From Haliea sp. (GTDB taxonomy: Bacteria; Pseudomonadota; Gammaproteobacteria; Pseudomonadales; Halieaceae), in NCBI GenBank assembly GCA_002692965.1, contig NZNC01000021.1, positions 62,001-126,000 of the forward strand: a stretch of DNA of 64,000 nucleotides. Direction: 5' to 3'. Position numbers and translations under genes: made by a program. Under the pieces are notes generated by a model. That model was not told the origin of the DNA. It worked only from the letters and a program-made list of their open reading frames with translations, and made no database searches. Of this stretch, positions 54,617 to 63,941 are shown piece by piece (the first letter of the stretch is position 1; each line of letters opens with the position of its first letter).

Positions 54617-55813
54617 ATGATCAAACCCCACGGTTCCGAACAACTGAACCCGCTCTACGTGGCCGATGATGCGGCGCGTGCCGCCCTGCAGCAGGAAGCC
54701 GAGGGCCTGCCCTCGCTGCTGCTGAATTCCGCCGCTGCCGCCAACGCGGTGATGCTCGGCGCGGGCTACTTCAACCCCCTGAACGGCTACATGAACCTGG
54801 CCGACACCCTGAGTGTGGCGGAGAAGCTGCAGACAGTCGACGGCCTGTTCTGGCCGGTGCCCATCGTCAACCTGACCAAGGAGTCGGGCGTTGAGGCCGG
54901 CAGCCGCATTGCCCTGCGCGATCCCAATGTCGCCGGCAACCCGGTGCTGGCGGTGATGGACGTCGAAGCCGTGGAGACGGTCAGCGAAGAGCAGGTGGAT
55001 TTCATCTGCGAGAAGGTCTTCCGCACCCTGGACGACAAGCACCCCGGTGTCGCGACCTTCAAGGCCCTGGGTCGCACCCTGCTCTCCGGCCCCATCCAGG
55101 TGCTGAACTTCTCCTATTTCGAGAAGGACTTCCCCGAGACCTTCCGCACCGCCTACCAGATCCGCGACGAGATCGCCCAGCGCGGTTGGAACAAGGTGGT
55201 GGCCTTCCAGACCCGCAATCCGATGCACCGCGCCCACGAGGAACTGTGCCGCATGGCCATGCAGGACCTGGGTGCCGACGGCATCCTGATCCACATGCTG
55301 CTGGGCCAGCTGAAGCCGGGGGATATCCCCGCCGACGTGCGCGACGCCGCGATCCGCAAGATGGTCGATGTGTACTTCCCGGAGAACACCGTGATGATTA
55401 CCGGCTACGGTTTCGACATGCTCTATGCCGGTCCCCGGGAAGCGGTTCTGCACGCGGTATTCCGTCAGAACTGTGGCTGCACCCACCTGATCGTGGGTCG
55501 CGACCACGCCGGTGTCGGCGACTACTACGGCGGCTTTGACGCGCAGACGATCTTCGACGAGGAAGTGCCCGCGGGTGCCCTGGAGCTGGAGATCTACCGC
55601 GCCGATCACACCGCCTACAGCAAGAAGCTGGATCGGGTGGTGATGATGCGCGACGCGCCGGACCATAGCCCCGAGGACTTCGTGCTGCTCTCCGGCACCA
55701 AGGTCCGGGAAATGCTCGGCAACGGCATCGCGCCGCCCCCCGAGTTCTCCCGTCCGGAAGTGGCGCAGATCCTGATGGATTACTACCAGCGTCAGGACGC
55801 CGCGTCCGCCTGA
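54617..55813 (+). CDS. sat: Sulfate adenylyltransferase (monomeric Sat type)
   Basis: Sat makes APS from sulfate and ATP. The 398-residue protein is the single-chain Sat type, not the CysD-CysN pair. Motifs are VVAFQTRNPMHRAHEELC (HxxH region), HLIVGRDHAGVGDYYG and LLSGTKVREMLGNG, all typical of this family. A ribosome site AAGGAG precedes the ATG. It ends the sulfation module and is followed by a hairpin and the PhoB-like sites of the gsp operon. Confidence 0.97.
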   Translation: MIKPHGSEQLNPLYVADDAARAALQQEAEGLPSLLLNSAAAANAVMLGAGYFNPLNGYMNLADTLSVAEKLQTVDGLFWPVPIVNLTKESGVEAGSRIALRDPNVAGNPVLAVMDVEAVETVSEEQVDFICEKVFRTLDDKHPGVATFKALGRTLLSGPIQVLNFSYFEKDFPETFRTAYQIRDEIAQRGWNKVVAFQTRNPMHRAHEELCRMAMQDLGADGILIHMLLGQLKPGDIPADVRDAAIRKMVDVYFPENTVMITGYGFDMLYAGPREAVLHAVFRQNCGCTHLIVGRDHAGVGDYYGGFDAQTIFDEEVPAGALELEIYRADHTAYSKKLDRVVMMRDAPDHSPEDFVLLSGTKVREMLGNGIAPPPEFSRPEVAQILMDYYQRQDAASA

Positions 55814-55823
55814 TGCGCCTGCA

Positions 55824-55849
55824 GCGGCCACCGCCTCCGCGGTGGTCGC
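55824..55849 (+). terminator. GC hairpin after sat, weak terminator candidate
   Basis: GCGGCCACCGC (55824-55834) and GCGGTGGTCGC (55839-55849) pair over 11 positions, one of them G-T, with a four-base loop. It begins ten bases after the sat stop. There is no T run, so it may work with a factor, protect the 3' end, or not terminate at all. Confidence 0.4.
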
Positions 55850-55877
55850 ACCTCCTCTCCCCGCGCCTGCGGCGCCC

Positions 55878-55917
55878 CTGTCATCTTTTCGTCATCTGAC
55901 GGTCATCCCGCTGTCAC
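55878..55917 (+). promoter_or_regulatory. Four PhoB-type half-sites (double Pho box)
   Basis: CTGTCAT, TCGTCAT, CGGTCAT and CTGTCAC begin at 55878, 55889, 55900 and 55911, exactly 11 bases apart, in one orientation. The best match CTGTCAT equals the consensus 7-mer of PhoB half-sites, and the 11-base step is that of Pho boxes. They lie upstream of gspC, 26 bases before a perfect TATAAT. The repeats are observed; PhoB as the binding protein is inference. Confidence 0.7.
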
Positions 55918-55942
55918 GGTTTTATCTTTTAATGGCGGTCCC

Positions 55943-55948
55943 TATAAT
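55943..55948 (+). promoter_or_regulatory. -10 box of the gsp operon promoter
   Basis: A perfect TATAAT with no good -35 hexamer at 16-18 bases upstream (the region reads TTTTATCTTT). Lack of a -35 box next to upstream activator sites is characteristic of activator-dependent promoters. The leader to the gspC start would be about 50 bases. Confidence 0.55.
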
Positions 55949-56004
55949 CGGGCAGTAAAACGACCGGGACAGATCTCTGCCCGGCACAGGTTCGGGAGAC
56001 CCTC

Positions 56005-57033
56005 TTGGCCATATCCTGGCTCCACAGCGGCAGCGAATCCGGCGCGCGTCTGCGCGAGTTTCCGGGGTCGCGCTCCCTCGCCGGACTGTGGCAACGTCTG
56101 CGCCAGCCCCGTCAGGTAGCCCGGCTCAAGGCACTCTGCCTGGCTCTGGCCGCGCTGTGGCTGCTGGCGTCGCTGGCACAGCTGTTCTGGGCCTTCTGGC
56201 CGCAGCCGGACGTGACGCCCGCGGCGGCGCCACTCAACCCGGCCCAGGGGGCCGCACGCCGCGCCGTGGCGGGCCCGGCCGTGGACCTGGAGGCCCTGCG
56301 TGCCGCGGCGCTGTTTGGTCGTCGCGATGCCTCTGACGTCGCGGCGACGCCCGCCCCGACGCCCCGCGAGGCGCGTGAGGGCATCGAGGAGGGCGCCCGG
56401 GAGACCCGGCTGGATCTGGTGCTGCGTGGCGTGGCGGCCTCTCCGGTGGAGGGGCAGGGCAGTGCCGTGATCGAGGTGCGCGGCCAGCAGCATGTGTTTC
56501 GCGTGGACCAGGCGCTGCCGCTGTCCGGCCGCGTGACCCTGGCCAAGGTACTGCCCGACCGGGTGGTGCTGGATAACGCCGGCACCTATGAATTGCTGCG
56601 CCTCTATGCGGAGTCCGAACTGGACCGGCAGCTCGGCGCTGCGGCGAACAGAGAGCCCGCGGCGGCACCGCAGACCGTGGATCGCCGCGACGATGCCGGC
56701 GTGGCAGATCTCGCCGGTCGCTACCGCGAACAGCTCTACCGCGACCCGCAGTCACTGGCCTCCCTGGTGCGCATCGCCCCGGTTCGCCAGGCGGGGGAGC
56801 TGCAGGGCTACCGGATCACCCCGGGGGAAAACCGTCAGCAGTTCGAGCAGCTGGGCTTTCGGGCCGGCGACCTGGTGGTCGCGGTCAACGGCATGCCCCT
56901 CTCGGACCCGGCCAACGCCATGCGCCTGTATCAGTTGATGCGCACGGCCAGCGAAGCCACCTTTGAACTGCAGCGTGACGGCCAGCCGCTTGCAGTGAGT
57001 ATCAGCCTGGGCGATGCTGCCCCGGATGCCTGA
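56005..57033 (+). CDS. gspC: Type II secretion protein GspC
   Basis: GspC is the inner membrane protein that contacts the GspD secretin. The 342-residue product starts with TTG at 56005; GGGAG at 55994-55998 is well placed and no better start is seen. It has a cytoplasmic tail, one membrane segment near residues 44-66, the HR domain (about 120-200, LDLVLRGVAASPVEGQGSAV) and a PDZ domain at the C-terminus (LQGYRITPGENRQQFEQLGF, then RAGDLVVAVNGMPL). It is the first gene of gspCDEFGHIJK. Confidence 0.92.
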   Translation: MAISWLHSGSESGARLREFPGSRSLAGLWQRLRQPRQVARLKALCLALAALWLLASLAQLFWAFWPQPDVTPAAAPLNPAQGAARRAVAGPAVDLEALRAAALFGRRDASDVAATPAPTPREAREGIEEGARETRLDLVLRGVAASPVEGQGSAVIEVRGQQHVFRVDQALPLSGRVTLAKVLPDRVVLDNAGTYELLRLYAESELDRQLGAAANREPAAAPQTVDRRDDAGVADLAGRYREQLYRDPQSLASLVRIAPVRQAGELQGYRITPGENRQQFEQLGFRAGDLVVAVNGMPLSDPANAMRLYQLMRTASEATFELQRDGQPLAVSISLGDAAPDA

Positions 57034-57053: not shown

Positions 57054-59096
57054 ATGCCGCGAGTGACCGCCAAGATCCGCGCCCTGTGCGCCCTGCCATA
57101 CTGCCTGTTGCTGGGCGCCGTCCTGTCGATCGGCACCGCCCATGCCCAGGAGTTCACGGTCAATCTCAAGGACACCGATATCCAGGAGCTGATCAAGTTT
57201 GTCGCCGAGGCGACGGATACCACCATCGTGGTCGATCCGGCAGTGAAGGGGCGGGTGAAGGTCGTCTCGACCAAGCCGGTTTCACGCAGCGAGCTCTATG
57301 ATTTGTTCCTCTCCATCCTGGAAGTCCACGGCTACACCGCGGTGCGCTCGGGCGGTGTGGTCCGGGTGATCCAGAACAAGGATGCGCGCTCCGCTCCGGT
57401 TGCGGTCGGGGACACCCGGGAGGGGGCCTCGGGGGACGAGTACGTAACCCAGGTGATGCGCCTGGAGAACATTTCCGCGGCCAAGCTGATTCCGGTGTTG
57501 CGCCCGCTGGTGCCGCAGCAGGCCCACATGGCCGCCTATGCCCCCAGCAACGCGATCATTATCTCCGACGTGGCGGCGAATATTGCCCGCATCGCGGCGA
57601 TCATCGAGCGCATGGACCGCAGCGCGGTGCAGGAAACCGAGATGATCAAGCTGCGCTACGGGGTGGCCGAGGATGTGGTGGAGAAGCTCAATGCCCTGAA
57701 CCGGCAGGTCGCGGGCGGCGAGGGCAGTGAGAGCGAAACCCTGCTGGTGGCGGACAAGCGTACCAACAGTATCCTGGTCAGCGCCGATGAGCTGGAGCGG
57801 GCCCGGATCAACCGTCTGATCCGCTTCCTCGACAGCCCCCAGGAGCAGACCGGCAACGTCAAGGTGGTCTACCTGGAATACGCCAAGGCCGAGGAGGTCT
57901 CCGAGGTGCTTTCCCGGGTGGTCCAGAACGTGCGCCGGCGCGACAGCGGCGAGAGCAGCGCGACCACGCGCAGGGGCGACGGCCCGACCATCGAAGCCGA
58001 TCCCGGCACCAACGCCCTGATCATTACCGCCGAACCCGATGAAATGGCGTCCCTGGAGTCGGTGATTGCGCGCCTGGACATCCGCCGTGCCCAGGTCCTG
58101 GTGGAGGCGATCATCGTCGAGATGGAGGTGCGCGACGGGCAGGATCTCGGCCTGCAGTGGCTGTTCGCCAACGAGGACGGCTTCTACGGCAGCAGCATCA
58201 ATCCCGACGACGCGCGGGCCCGGCGCATCGCCGGTGCCATTCTGCCGAGCGACAGCGAGGATGGCAGTGGCGGTACCACGACTGGCGATTTCAATGTCGG
58301 CGCCCTGGCCGGCGCCCTGGCGCAGTCGCCGGGGCTGTCCCTGGGCTGGGGTGTCGTGGATGACGACCTGTCGATGACGGTGATCCTCAACGCCCTGCGC
58401 GAGCAGTCCAACGCCAATATCCTCTCCACGCCGAGCCTGCTGACCCTGGACAACCAGGAGGCCTACATCACCGTGGGCCAGAACGTGCCCTTCGTGACTG
58501 GCTCCTACACCAGTACTGGCGCCAGTGACGGTGCCCAGAATCCCTTCCAGACCATCGAGCGGGAAAACGTCGGTATCACCCTCACGGTGACGCCGCACAT
58601 CAACGAGGGCAATGCGGTGGTACTGGATATCTCCCAGGAGGTCTCCAGCCTCAGCAATACGTCGGCGGTGCTGGACGCCTCGGACCTGATCACCAACGAG
58701 CGCATCCTGCAGACCAAGGTGCTGGCCGCGGACCAGAGCACGGTGGTGCTGGGCGGGCTGATCAAGGACGACGTCCAGGACGGCAGCCAGAAGGTGCCGC
58801 TGCTGGGTGATATTCCACTGCTGGGCCGCCTGTTCCGCAGCGACGCCACCTCGGTGGTGAAGACCAACCTGCTGATTTTCATCCGCCCGACCATCATTCG
58901 CGACGATCACCAGCTGCACGGTGCCACCGCGGAGAAATACCGCTATATCCGCGACCAGCAGCTGGAGCGCCAGCGCCGGGGTATCCGCTTCCTGGACGAC
59001 AGTTACATTCCGGTGCTGCCGGAGTGGGAGGATCAGGTCCGCCAGCTTGAGCAAATGCAGCAGGATGCCGGCAAGCGCGAGGGCGCGGGTCCGTGA
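57054..59096 (+). CDS. gspD: Type II secretion secretin GspD
   Basis: GspD forms the outer membrane secretion channel. The 680-residue protein has a signal peptide (about 1-31, ending TAHA) and an N0 domain starting [21 protein letters not shown]1-N3 repeats follow ([59 protein letters not shown]). The secretin core includes [20 protein letters not shown] and [16 protein letters not shown]. The ATG follows the gspC stop by 20 bases. No pilotin gene is visible in the window. Confidence 0.97.
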
Positions 59097-60586
59097 CCTT
59101 GGCTGCCGCCAGCCCGGCTCCGCGGCCGCTGCCCTTCGGTTTTGCCAAGCAGCACGGCGTGCTGTTGCAGGCAGCGGAGGTGGATGCGCCGATAGTCGCC
59201 CACCGCGATGCGCCGCCGCTGTCGGTGTTGCTGGAGCTGCGCCGCTGGCTGGGCGGGCCTTTCCAGCTTGAAGCGGTGAGCGAAGCCGAATTCCAGCGGC
59301 GTTTGACCCGGGCCTATCAGCGCGACAACAGCGAAGCGGTGCAGATGGCCGAGGACATTTCGGCGGATGTCGATCTCAGCCGCCTGGCGGATGAAATTCC
59401 CGAGGCCGGCGACCTGATGGATGCCGAGGACGATGCGCCGATCATTCGTCTGATTAACGCCATCCTCTCCCAGGCGGTGCGGGAACAGGCCTCGGACATC
59501 CACATCGAGACCTTCGAGGATCGCCTGAGTGTGCGCTACCGCATCGACGGCGTGCTCAGCGAGGTGCTTTCGCCCAAGCGCATGCTGGCGCCGCTGCTGG
59601 TATCGCGCCTCAAGGTGATGGCCCGCCTGGACATCGCCGAAAAGCGCGTGCCCCAGGATGGCCGCATCTCGGTGCGCATTGCCGGCCACGCCATCGACAT
59701 CCGCATGTCCACGATTCCCTCCGCCCACGGCGAGCGGGTGGTGCTGCGCCTGCTGGACAAGCAGGCGGGACAGCTGGAGCTGATGCAGCTGAACATGAAC
59801 CCCCAGGTGCTGCAGGCCTACCAGAAGGCCCTGCACAGCCCCCACGGCATCATCCTGGTCACTGGCCCCACCGGCTCGGGCAAGACAACCACACTCTACG
59901 CCGGGCTGTCCCACATCAACCAGAGCACCCGCAACATCCTCACCATCGAGGATCCGATCGAATACATGCTTCCCGGTGTGGGCCAGACCCAGGTCAATCC
60001 CAAGGTGGAGATGACCTTCGCCCGCGGCCTGCGCGCCATCCTGCGCCAGGACCCGGACGTGGTGATGGTGGGGGAAATCCGCGACCTGGAGACGGCGGAG
60101 ATTGCGGTGCAGGCTTCCCTCACCGGCCACCTGGTACTTTCCACCCTGCACACCAATACGGCGATCGGCGCGGTGACCCGCCTGCAGGACATGGGGATCG
60201 AGCCCTTCCTGCTCTCCTCCAGCCTGATCGGCGTAATGGCCCAGCGCCTGGTGCGCCTGCTCTGTAGTCACTGCCGTCAGCCGGCGACGGCCACTGCCAG
60301 TGAATGCGCGCTGCTCGGCGTGGACCCGGCGCAGGCGCCGCAGATCTGGCACGCCGGCCACTGCGAGCACTGCAACGACAGCGGCTATCGCGGCCGCACC
60401 GGGATCTACGAGCTGATCGAGATCAACGACGCCCTGCGCAATGCCATTCACGAGGGCGCCAGCGAGCAGCAAATGCTGCTGCTGGCGCGTCAGCACTACC
60501 CGGGTATTCAGGAGGACGGCCGCCGCCGCATCCTGGCCGGGGAAACCAGCATCGAGGAGGTGCTGCGGGTGACCGCGGTCAACTGA
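59093..60586 (+). CDS. gspE: Type II secretion ATPase GspE
   Basis: GspE is the cytoplasmic ATPase of the secretion system. The 497-residue protein starts with GTG overlapping the gspD stop by four bases. The core carries Walker [18 protein letters not shown], the Asp box [17 protein letters not shown], Walker [20 protein letters not shown] and the His box [10 protein letters not shown] zinc module with CSHC and CEHC is present. It is paralogous to pilB at 21866. Confidence 0.97.
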
Positions 60587-60590
60587 TCCC

Positions 60591-61811
60591 ATGACCGCCT
60601 TCCGTTATCGCGCACTCAATCCCGGCGGCAAGCTGGTCAAGGGGGTCCTCGAGGGGGACTCCGAGCGCCAGGTACGCCAGCAGCTGCGCCAGCAGAAACT
60701 GCGACCCGTGGAGGTGGCCCAGGCCAACCGCGAAGCCTCGCCGCGCCGCGGTTTGCGCCTGAACCTGTTTCGGCCGCGCATCAGTACCGCCGAACTAGCC
60801 CTGCTGACCCGCCAGCTGGCGACGCTGGTCCAGTCCAGCCTTCCCCTCGACGAGTGCCTGCAGGCGGCGGCCGAGCAGAGCCGGCGGCCGCGCACCAAGG
60901 CGCTGTTGCTGCAGGTGCGCTCGCGGGTGGCCGAAGGGCACACCCTGGCCTACGCGATGGGGGAGTTTCCCCAGGTGTTCAGCGACATGTACCGCGCCAT
61001 GGTCAATGCCGGGGAGCACGCCGGTTTCCTGGGGCCGGTACTGGAGCAGCTGGCGGATTACAACGAGCAGCGCCAGTACACCGCCCAGAAGTTGAAGATG
61101 GCGATGATCTACCCCTTCATTCTGGTCGCCGTGGCCATTGCCGTGGTGGTGGCGCTGATGGTCTTTGTGGTGCCGGAGCTGGTGGGAATTTTCGCCCACA
61201 GCCAGAAGGCCCTGCCGCTGCTGACCCGCGGGCTGATCGCCACCAGCGATTTCTTCCGCGATTACGCCCTGTGGCTGCTGGCGGGCATTGTCCTCGCGGT
61301 GTTCGGCCTGCGCTACTGGCTGCGGGTGCCGCGCAACCGTCGGCGCTGGCACGCGCTCCTGCTGCGTCTGCCCGGCGTGTCGGGCCTGGTGACGGCGGTG
61401 GACACGGCGCGCTTTGCCTCCACCCTGAGCATTCTGATGGCCAGCGGGGTGCCCTTGCTGGAGGCCCTGCGCATCGCCGGGCAGGTGCTGACCAACCGGG
61501 TGCTGCGGGAGGACAGCGCTGCGGTGGCGGCGCGGGTGCAGGAGGGCAGCAGCCTCAATCGCGCCCTGCGCGAGAGCGGGCGTTTTCCGCCGATGATGGT
61601 ACATATGGTTGCCAGCGGCGAGGCCAGCGGCGAGCTGGAAACCATGCTGCAGCGCTCGGCGACCAACCAGGAGCGCGAGCTGGAAATGACTCTGGGTACG
61701 GTGATGGGCCTGCTCGAGCCCCTGCTGGTGGTGGTCATGGGCGGGATGGTGCTGATCATTGTGATGGCCATCCTGCTGCCGATTTTCGATCTCAACACAA
61801 TGGTGCGATAG
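60591..61811 (+). CDS. gspF: Type II secretion platform protein GspF
   Basis: GspF is the inner membrane platform. The 406-residue protein has two T2SSF domains (LTRQLATLVQSSLPLDECLQ and FASTLSILMASGVPLLEALR) and three hydrophobic segments, as in PilC. The N-terminus MTAFRYRALNPGGKLVKGVL is standard. The ATG follows gspE by four bases. Confidence 0.97.
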   Translation: MTAFRYRALNPGGKLVKGVLEGDSERQVRQQLRQQKLRPVEVAQANREASPRRGLRLNLFRPRISTAELALLTRQLATLVQSSLPLDECLQAAAEQSRRPRTKALLLQVRSRVAEGHTLAYAMGEFPQVFSDMYRAMVNAGEHAGFLGPVLEQLADYNEQRQYTAQKLKMAMIYPFILVAVAIAVVVALMVFVVPELVGIFAHSQKALPLLTRGLIATSDFFRDYALWLLAGIVLAVFGLRYWLRVPRNRRRWHALLLRLPGVSGLVTAVDTARFASTLSILMASGVPLLEALRIAGQVLTNRVLREDSAAVAARVQEGSSLNRALRESGRFPPMMVHMVASGEASGELETMLQRSATNQERELEMTLGTVMGLLEPLLVVVMGGMVLIIVMAILLPIFDLNTMVR

Positions 61812-61812
61812 C

Positions 61813-62265
61813 GTGATGCGAGACAAGCGAGTGACGGCGAGTCGCCAGGGCGGCTTCTCCCTGGTGGAAATCCTGGTGGTGCTGGTGATCATGGGCCTGC
61901 TGATCAGCGTGGTGGCCCCCACGGTGCTCAATCGCGCCGACGAAGCGCGGGTGCAGAAGGTCTACGCGGATTTCAAGGCGATCGAGACGGCCCTGAAAAT
62001 CTACCGCCTGGACAACTACACCTACCCGACCACCGAACAGGGCCTGCAGGCCCTGGTGGAGCCCAGCGGCCTGGAGCCCCAGCCGCGCAACTTCAAGACC
62101 GGCGGTTACCTCGCCGAGGTGCCGGTGGACCCCTGGGGGCGGCCCTATCTCTACTTGAGCCCGGGTGAGCAGGGCGAAGTGGATATCTACACCCTGGGTG
62201 CCGACGGCTTGTCGGGCGGCGAAGGCCAGAATGCCGATATCGGCAACTGGAAAGCGGAGGACTGA
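61813..62265 (+). CDS. gspG: Major pseudopilin GspG
   Basis: GspG is the main subunit of the T2SS pseudopilus. The 150-residue product begins with a basic leader and is cut before FSLVEILVVLVIMGLLISVV, giving Glu at mature position 5. The C-terminal part contains YPTTEQGLQALVEPS, VDPWGRPYLYLSPGEQGEVD and GADGLSGGEGQNADIGNW, the last with calcium-site acidic residues. GTG 61813 or ATG 61816 may be the start; the leader is otherwise the same. Confidence 0.96.
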   Translation: MMRDKRVTASRQGGFSLVEILVVLVIMGLLISVVAPTVLNRADEARVQKVYADFKAIETALKIYRLDNYTYPTTEQGLQALVEPSGLEPQPRNFKTGGYLAEVPVDPWGRPYLYLSPGEQGEVDIYTLGADGLSGGEGQNADIGNWKAED

Positions 62266-62271
62266 AGCGGC

Positions 62272-62901
62272 GTGAGCTTCCCGCTTCCGCCCGTATCTGT
62301 CTGCCCGGTGCCCGGTTTCCCCCGAGGCGCCCGGGGCTTCAGCCTGATCGAGCTGTTGGTGGTGATGCTGGTGATCGTGATCATGACCTCCCTGGCCACC
62401 CTGAGCATGAATGTCGGCACCCGCGAGCGCACGCTCGAGGCCCAGTTGCGGGAGCTGAGCAACCTGGCCCGGCACGCCCAGGAGGAGGCCGAGCTGAGCG
62501 GTCGCAGCTACGGCCTGCTGCTGGCACTGGACAGCGTGGACGGCGAGCCGGTCTATCAATACCACTGGCGCGAGCAGCGTCCGGGCGGTTGGCGCCGGCC
62601 GGAAATCGGCGGCGAGCTGTTCCGCCCGCGCACGCTGGTGGAGGGCCTGCTGCTGGAGTTGACCCTGGAGTCGGTGCCGGACACCCCGGCGCTGCCGGCT
62701 CCCGTGGCGCCCGATGCCACGCCACAGGTGCTGTTCCAGGCCAGCGGAGAAGTCAGCGCCGGCACCCTGGACATCTACGATCGAGAGAGCAATACATTGC
62801 TCTGGCGTCTGCAATGGGACGGCCTGGGCCGCTGGGAAATGTTGCCGGAGGGGCGGCCCGAGGGCGACAGCGGGAGAGGTGAGCGTGAAATCGCGCGCTG
62901 A
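62272..62901 (+). CDS. gspH: Minor pseudopilin GspH
   Basis: A 209-residue minor pseudopilin. A GTG start gives an unusually long, Pro-rich leader of about 22 residues (MSFPLPPVSVCPVPGFPRGA) before the RG/FSLIELLVVMLVIVIMTS cleavage region. The globular part is typical in length, with SYGLLLALDSVDGEPVYQYH. Downstream sequence suggests no shorter start with a better ribosome site, so the long leader may be real. It overlaps gspI by 17 bases. Confidence 0.87.
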   Translation: MSFPLPPVSVCPVPGFPRGARGFSLIELLVVMLVIVIMTSLATLSMNVGTRERTLEAQLRELSNLARHAQEEAELSGRSYGLLLALDSVDGEPVYQYHWREQRPGGWRRPEIGGELFRPRTLVEGLLLELTLESVPDTPALPAPVAPDATPQVLFQASGEVSAGTLDIYDRESNTLLWRLQWDGLGRWEMLPEGRPEGDSGRGEREIAR

Positions 62902-63304
62902 GGGCGGCTTCACCCTGGTCGAGGTCATGGTGGCCCTGGCCGTGGTGGCCCTGGCGCTGCCGGCACTGCTGTTTACCCTGCACCAGCAGCTGGATGGCAC
63001 CGGCTACCTGCGCGACAAGACCCACGCCCAGCTGGTGGCGGGCAACAAGCTCAGTGAGCTGCGCCTCTTGCAGCAAGTCCGCGGGGGCCTGTTCCGCGGC
63101 AGCGACAGCGGTGTCAGCCAGATGGTCGGACGCGACTGGGCCTGGGAGCTGCGTACCGAAGACACCGCGGTGCAGGGTTTTCAGCGAGTGGAAATCCGTG
63201 TCTACGCCGGCGAGGAAGCCGAGGGCTCGCCGCTGCACACCCTGGTGGCCTTCCTCGCCGATCTCGATGCGCCCGCTGCGGCGGAGGTGCCGGGTGCGGG
63301 CTGA
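62885..63304 (+). CDS. gspI: Minor pseudopilin GspI
   Basis: A 139-residue minor pseudopilin. GTG 62885 gives MKSRAEGGFTLVEVMVALAV, cleaved before FTLVE, with Glu at position 5. The globular domain includes NKLSELRLLQQVRGGL and RVEIRVYAGEEAEGSPLHTL. The frame is open upstream to 62714 but overlaps gspH, so the short leader is preferred. It overlaps both neighbours, in keeping with tight coupling of gspGHIJK. Confidence 0.93.
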   Translation: MKSRAEGGFTLVEVMVALAVVALALPALLFTLHQQLDGTGYLRDKTHAQLVAGNKLSELRLLQQVRGGLFRGSDSGVSQMVGRDWAWELRTEDTAVQGFQRVEIRVYAGEEAEGSPLHTLVAFLADLDAPAAAEVPGAG

Positions 63305-63941
63305 GCGCGGGTTCACTCTGGTCGAGGTATTGATTGCCCTGGCCATCACCGCCTTTGTCGCGGCGGCGGCCTACGCCGGCCTGTCCGCGGCAATAGACGG
63401 GGTGGAGCGCAGCCGCGCCGAGGCGGAGCGCCACTGGGAACTGACCCGCGCCCTGCGCATCTTCGCCCGCGACCTGCGCCATTTCGTGCCACGCCCGGTG
63501 CGCGACGAGTTTGGCGAGACGGAGCCCGCCCTGATGGGCGGACCGGCAGCGCGTTTCACCCTGAGCCTGACCCGCAGCGGCTGGCACAATCCGAACAACC
63601 ACCCGCGCAGCCATTTGCAGCGGGTTAATTACGTCTGGGAGGACGACGCCCTGTGGCGCGAGAGCTACCCGGTACTCGACCGTGCCGGCAATACCGAAGC
63701 GCAGCGGGTGCGCCTGTTCGGGGGTGTCACTGATCTGCGTCTGTTCTTCCTCGACAATCCTGGCAACCTGGACGCGGCCAGCCGCGGGGTGTCGATCGAT
63801 ACGCGCAACTGGCCCGAGAGTTGGGCGCCGGACCCCATGCAGTTCGGGGATGAGCTGGCGCCACCGCTGGCACTGGAGCTGGTTTTGCAGCTGGATGGCC
63901 TGGGCGAGGTGAGGAGTCTGCATGTGCTCCCGTCGAACTAG
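63294..63941 (+). CDS. gspJ: Minor pseudopilin GspJ
   Basis: A 215-residue minor pseudopilin. GTG 63294 gives MRAERGFTLVEVLIALAITA, cleaved before FTLVE. The globular part shows IFARDLRHFVPRPVRDEFGE and FTLSLTRSGWHNPNNHPRSH, then VNYVWEDDALWRESYPVLDR, typical of GspJ. It overlaps gspI by 11 bases and gspK by 20. The open frame from 62994 belongs partly to gspI in another frame. Confidence 0.94.
   Translation: MRAERGFTLVEVLIALAITAFVAAAAYAGLSAAIDGVERSRAEAERHWELTRALRIFARDLRHFVPRPVRDEFGETEPALMGGPAARFTLSLTRSGWHNPNNHPRSHLQRVNYVWEDDALWRESYPVLDRAGNTEAQRVRLFGGVTDLRLFFLDNPGNLDAASRGVSIDTRNWPESWAPDPMQFGDELAPPLALELVLQLDGLGEVRSLHVLPSN

Follow-up and report, generated by a model that had tools for sequence, protein, structure and literature searches.

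A predicted PhoB-dependent promoter overlapping an older promoter of the type II secretion operon in Haliea sp.

Introduction

Phosphate is often growth-limiting in the sea. In the genome of Haliea sp., a member of the Halieaceae, a row of short repeats lies before gspC in a type II secretion (gsp) operon, and this raises the question of whether secretion in this bacterium is controlled by phosphate supply and, if so, from which promoter. An earlier note on this DNA had predicted phosphate-starvation control of the operon through tandem Pho boxes. Here we consider the repeats, the promoter elements behind them and their counterparts in relatives. The window is the whole stretch of DNA that was analysed, 64,000 nucleotides long (contig NZNC01000021.1, positions 62,001 to 126,000 of the forward strand), and coordinates within it are counted from its first letter.

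Results

One gspC was found in the genome, and the operon described here is therefore the only gspC operon detected. Its upstream neighbours are the sulfate-assimilation genes cysC and sat. The genes C, D, E, F, G and H lie inside the window; J, K, L and N were assigned by Pfam, and gspK, gspL and gspN continue past the window edge. There was no separate Pfam match for gspI and gspM in the operon. The gene order runs from gspC to gspN, which bears out the description of a complete gsp operon in the earlier note.

55824 to 55849, plus strand: GC-rich hairpin past sat, likely the end of the sulfate operon (uncertain, since a clear T tract is missing)
56005 to 57033, plus strand: gspC, with a TTG start as listed
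57054 to 59096, plus strand: gspD, secretin
59093 to 60586, plus strand: gspE, ATPase
60591 to 61811, plus strand: gspF
61813 to 62265, plus strand: gspG, major pseudopilin
62272 to 62901, plus strand: gspH
62994 to 63941, plus strand: reading frame holding gspJ, its listed start too far upstream

Between the end of sat (55813) and gspC (56005), four 7-base half-sites follow each other at exact 11-base steps, all on the plus strand, just as they had been described before.

55878 to 55884, plus strand: predicted PhoB half-site 1, CTGTCAT; GTCA core in register in genus g27
55889 to 55895, plus strand: predicted PhoB half-site 2, TCGTCAT; from sequence, matrix score and relatives
55900 to 55906, plus strand: predicted PhoB half-site 3, CGGTCAT; from sequence, matrix score and relatives
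55911 to 55917, plus strand: predicted PhoB half-site 4, CTGTCAC; the most conserved half-site across the array-bearing clade
55922 to 55928, plus strand: degenerate slot 5, TTATCTT, in register; it overlaps the older core promoter and is not clearly a PhoB site

Four GTCA cores at 11-base steps occur once in the two strands of the window taken together, where 1.3e-5 occurrences would be expected from base composition. Scoring with a PhoB matrix had been proposed as a check, and we used two matrices, a general PhoB matrix and one built from the E. coli boxes that PMC3465305 lists. By both, the array was the best four-site match in the window. The general matrix gave it 35.2, compared to 2.0 for the best unrelated site; the matrix from published boxes gave it 32.3, and the runners-up were overlapping registers of the same array. 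When the upstream region was dinucleotide-shuffled 1000 times, the score rose to 8.0 at most, compared to the observed 34.8. Genome-wide statements on the array come from pattern searches. With up to 3 mismatches, the four-site pattern matched the 3.8 Mb genome 3 times (reversed control, 0), and the gsp array was the only match with 0 mismatches. A promoter scan of 55750-56050 gave no sigma-70 -35/-10 pair, in agreement with the earlier statement that a -35 box is absent. TTATCTT is at best a doubtful fifth PhoB site, because lineages that lack the array have these letters as well, as part of the older core promoter.

A regulator for such sites is encoded in the genome. One response regulator exceeds the TIGR02154 cut-off for PhoB, and it is adjoined by the histidine kinase PhoR, with PstS, PstC, more pst genes and a Porin_5 porin beside them. 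Upstream of phoB we found TTGTCAC-N4-TTGTCAC-10 nt-TCTAAT, and upstream of the Porin_5-family porin CTGTCAC-N4-CTGTCAT-10 nt-TATAAT; the half-sites before pstS are CTGACAT, GTGTCAT and CTGTCAT. Another regulator of the OmpR/PhoB family might use the array, as 11-base tandem sites are a trait of that family and the genome has 12 Trans_reg_C matches. However, the half-sites match the E. coli PhoB boxes and the genome's own phoB, pstS and porin sites, and its PhoB shares the recognition helix RTVDVHIRRLRKAL letter for letter with E. coli PhoB. We consider the use of the array by another regulator very improbable.

The two-site pattern matches the genome exactly at 7 places, its reversed control at none. 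The other two four-site places lie before genes of lipid metabolism and uptake, which are the usual company of a Pho regulon. One (L047:12090; G000:C17:406089) stands before a PAP2-like gene with an MJ1255/VC2487-type glycosyltransferase and possibly serves phosphate-saving lipid remodelling; the other (L046:13349-13652; G000:C31) is oriented to a TonB receptor and lies in the stretch that separates it from the ornithine-lipid synthase OlsF opposite. Some further boxes were observed. CTGTCAC-N4-CTGTCAC is located 33 bases upstream of a polyphosphate-kinase-like gene, and no clear -10 follows it at 10 nt (L110; G000:C21:95064), three half-sites precede the genes of two small proteins with predicted export, of which the second is lipoprotein-like (L114; G000:C31:147036), and a perfect two-site Pho box lies within phoR on the reverse strand (L112; G000:C21:179684).

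gspC is present in 112 of 115 genomes of the family, and we compared the DNA upstream of it from about 90 relatives, oriented by strand. In genera g1, g3, g11, g16, g18 and g27, half-sites in the 11-base register stand directly upstream of the core promoter described below. All four slots are filled in g27 and g1, and their spacer letters differ. The mean entropy over these two genera was 0.06 bit in the GTCA columns, compared to 1.06 bit in the spacers (p = 6e-6). Conservation of the repeats, the lack of which had been named as a ground for giving up the prediction, was thus found: the GTCA cores are kept in register and the spacers have diverged. This result also bears on the idea that the repeats are a relic or the intrinsic terminator of the sat operon, with no regulatory role. 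A terminator scan does point to 55897-55916, where TGACGGTCATCCCGCTGTCA has a T-rich tail. However, the inverted repeat is not conserved in g27, g11 and g16 while the direct repeats are, and the cores stay as the spacers drift, so that we take this explanation to be the least probable of those considered. The prediction of tandem Pho boxes before gspC is well supported by the encoded PhoB and PhoR, the like half-sites at phoB, pstS and the porin, and the register kept in relatives.

The question then is which -10 element belongs to the array. The candidates are as follows.

55918 to 55927, plus strand: gap of 10 nt from the last half-site to the predicted PhoB-type -10, as long as the gap of E. 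coli phoA, pstS and phoB
55928 to 55933, plus strand: proposed PhoB-dependent -10, TTTAAT, from its canonical spacing and from TTYAAT accompanying the array in relatives
55943 to 55948, plus strand: predicted basal -10, TATAAT, named in the earlier note; from its sequence and the family-wide core
55919 to 55949, plus strand: predicted older promoter core of gsp, GTTTTATCTTT-N10-CCCTATAATC, found once in each genome that has it, whether or not the lineage bears the array

The earlier note had paired the array with TATAAT and remarked that the 25-base gap was longer than in E. coli pstS. It had missed the degenerate slot 5 and TTTAAT, which follows the last half-site after exactly 10 nt. In E. 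coli (NC_000913), the last half-sites of phoA, pstS and phoB are likewise followed by 10 nt and then by TATAGT, TATTTT and CATAAT, respectively. The odd gap of 25 bases thus appears to have arisen because the wrong -10 had been paired with the array. TTTAAT matches the -10 consensus at four to five of six positions, and it is without the conserved A at position 2 of the -10, which counts against its use. In an unbiased scan for -10 elements behind the arrays over all gaps, the TATAAT position (25 nt) ranked first and the 10-nt position second. This ranking agrees with two -10 elements and does not prove that either is in use.

The perfect TATAAT is indeed present at 55943, but its assignment to the array did not hold, because it is an older, array-independent element across the family. 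The core GTTTTAWCTTT-N10-CCCTATAATC recurs upstream of gspC in 56 sequences from 19 genera, and a whole-genome search found it as a single occurrence in every genome that has it. The strongly conserved GTTTTAWCTTT occupies the expected -35 place in this core and is unlike TTGACA. By this comparison, the TATAAT is part of an older predicted gsp promoter that does not depend on the array.

TTYAAT at +10 shows a different distribution. It was present in 15 of 15 core-bearing sequences of array genera and in 0 of 41 other core-bearing sequences, which are not independent samples because the array marks essentially one clade; under a strict half-site threshold, which misses CCGTCAC, the table became 9/0/6/41 (p = 7e-7). 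Nine genera, in essence a single clade of Halieaceae, carry the array, and the other members of the family lack it. It falls in one part of a GspC/GspD tree, which is a quick tree with several open forks, and no shuffle was as clustered. Three genera (g14, g15 and g4) have kept the array with TTCAAT or TTAAAT at +10 and have lost TATAAT. The genus g26, within the array clade, has kept TATAAT, and both array and TTYAAT are gone. Exact two-site Pho boxes were found in 29 of 38 relatives' genomes, far more commonly than reversed controls, and because array-free lineages are among them, the absence of the gsp array elsewhere is not due to a generally different PhoB motif. Upstream of gspC in g13, g5 and g24 (L037, L092, L094, L096, L104, L095, L097), which were counted as 'maybe' for the array, weaker half-sites stand in 11-base register with the -10 candidates TACACT, TACTAT and TACAGT; these may be independent Pho promoters for gsp.

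It is conceivable that PhoB binds the array and activates the TATAAT promoter from 25 nt upstream, in which case GTTTTATCTTT would act as a weak -35 region and TTTAAT would be unused. TATAAT is a perfect -10 in the best-scoring position behind the arrays, and in P. aeruginosa the pho box of pdtA and phdA lies upstream of a separate -35/-10 that is used with the sigma factor VreI (PMC4971064). However, the genera that lost TATAAT kept the array together with the element at 10 nt, TTYAAT is kept only with the array, and the 10-nt geometry recurs at phoB and the porin in this genome and in E. coli. Activation of TATAAT by the array is therefore unlikely in our view. Because TTYAAT is paired with the array, TATAAT is lost in three genera and TATAAT is otherwise family-wide, gspC probably carries two overlapping promoters, one driven by PhoB and one basal. 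The co-occurrence of array and TTYAAT would reflect few independent events, roughly a single gain followed by a loss of the array in g26 and a loss of TATAAT.

What the system exports is less clear from the genome. We found two PhoX, three PhoD and one phospholipase-C-like gene, and a profile search of the genome gave no PF00245 alkaline phosphatase. The PhoX and PhoD genes are on contigs other than that of gsp, and none adjoins the operon; phosphatase genes beside the secretion genes, as in the Hxc type, are absent here, where the neighbours are cysC and sat. The N-termini of PhoX and PhoD carry twin-arginine-like signals, as judged by eye. The two PhoX genes lie in an organic-phosphate cluster (L135; G000:C6:44000-63900), side by side with one PhoD gene and a pair of TonB-type receptors. 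The search for the same boxes at secreted phosphatase genes, another proposed check, succeeded in part. PhoX gene 2 (C6:56643) is preceded by a fair Pho box, GTGTCAC-N4-CTGACAT-10 nt-CATACT, whose score is matched in the window by the gsp array alone. PhoX gene 1 (L135:6161) has no valid box: its CTGTCAC repeats are spaced 10 and not 11, with a hairpin after them, and were not counted. The region upstream of the phospholipase-C-like gene (C21:82358) is without a Pho box. No link of any PhoX or PhoD to the gsp secretion system was found in the genome. Export of phosphatases by the gsp system is plausible, with about even chances.

Discussion

We consider it highly probable that a PhoB-activated promoter overlaps the basal promoter of the only detected gspC operon in this genome. 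At low phosphate, PhoR would phosphorylate PhoB, which would occupy the four half-sites in the form of two dimers in tandem. The pho box of E. coli is near the -10 and replaces the -35 (PMC4971064), and the review literature gives the same half-site layout (PMC4415409). Bound PhoB in Haliea could likewise substitute for the missing -35 and recruit sigma-70 RNA polymerase to TTTAAT at 55928-55933, while the older TATAAT, 15 bp downstream of TTTAAT, would provide basal, phosphate-independent transcription. With both promoters active, type II secretion capacity would be raised under phosphate starvation, probably for the export of phosphate-scavenging and other degradative enzymes. We infer the binding of PhoB, the use of both -10 elements, the induction and the cargo from sequence. 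As a point against induction, many PhoB sites of E. coli, mainly intragenic ones, are reported to be transcriptionally inert (PMC10294691).

The closest model in layout is the pstS promoter of E. coli, which also has four half-sites of 7 bases, set 11 bases apart and followed after 10 nt by a -10, and no -35, but drives a phosphate transporter. In function, the gsp operon resembles systems of Pseudomonas. Both type II secretion systems of P. aeruginosa, Hxc and Xcp, rise at low phosphate (PMC9769906), which confirms the phosphate regulation of Hxc cited in the earlier note; for Haliea the rise is predicted from sequence. However, Hxc is a dedicated system that exists in addition to Xcp and has lapA/lapB beside it, whereas the Haliea genome has one gspC with sulfate-assimilation neighbours. 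In P. putida BIRD-1, entries for GspK and GspG beside PhoX are up at low phosphate and their neighbours are PhoBR-dependent (PMC5082522). Xcp and this gsp system beside phoX/uxpA thus offer a likeness, in that parts of a general type II secretion system rise with PhoX-type enzymes, to what is predicted for Haliea; unlike in BIRD-1, no phosphatase gene was found adjoining the Haliea operon. Caulobacter crescentus, also an aquatic bacterium, makes and releases the type II secretion cargo ElpS under phosphate starvation (PMC2996285). The likeness lies in the link of secretion to phosphate starvation, but that study concerned the cargo and not the promoter of the secretion operon. A full-text search of open-licence papers gave none that treats Halieaceae together with PhoB. 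Control of type II secretion by PhoB has been described for a few Pseudomonas, and the predicted case in Halieaceae is new. The proposed dual-promoter layout is uncommon, and the evolutionary series seen among the compared promoters is clear.

We suggest, giving equal weight to its being right or wrong, the following history. In one clade of Halieaceae, the sole general secretion system gained a PhoB operator and, exactly 10 nt from it, a new -10 inside its older promoter; in some descendants the old -10 was lost, so that secretion came to depend wholly on phosphate, and in one lineage the operator disappeared again. The living relatives in the clade would then show step by step how a new regulator is added to an old promoter and becomes indispensable to it. 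Because the gsp array is built like a phosphate-starvation switch, the marine bacteria that bear it probably increase production of the exporter once phosphate is exhausted. If this is true, Halieaceae couple their whole enzyme-export capacity to phosphate supply, and phosphate shortage would alter the amount of carbon polymer that they degrade.
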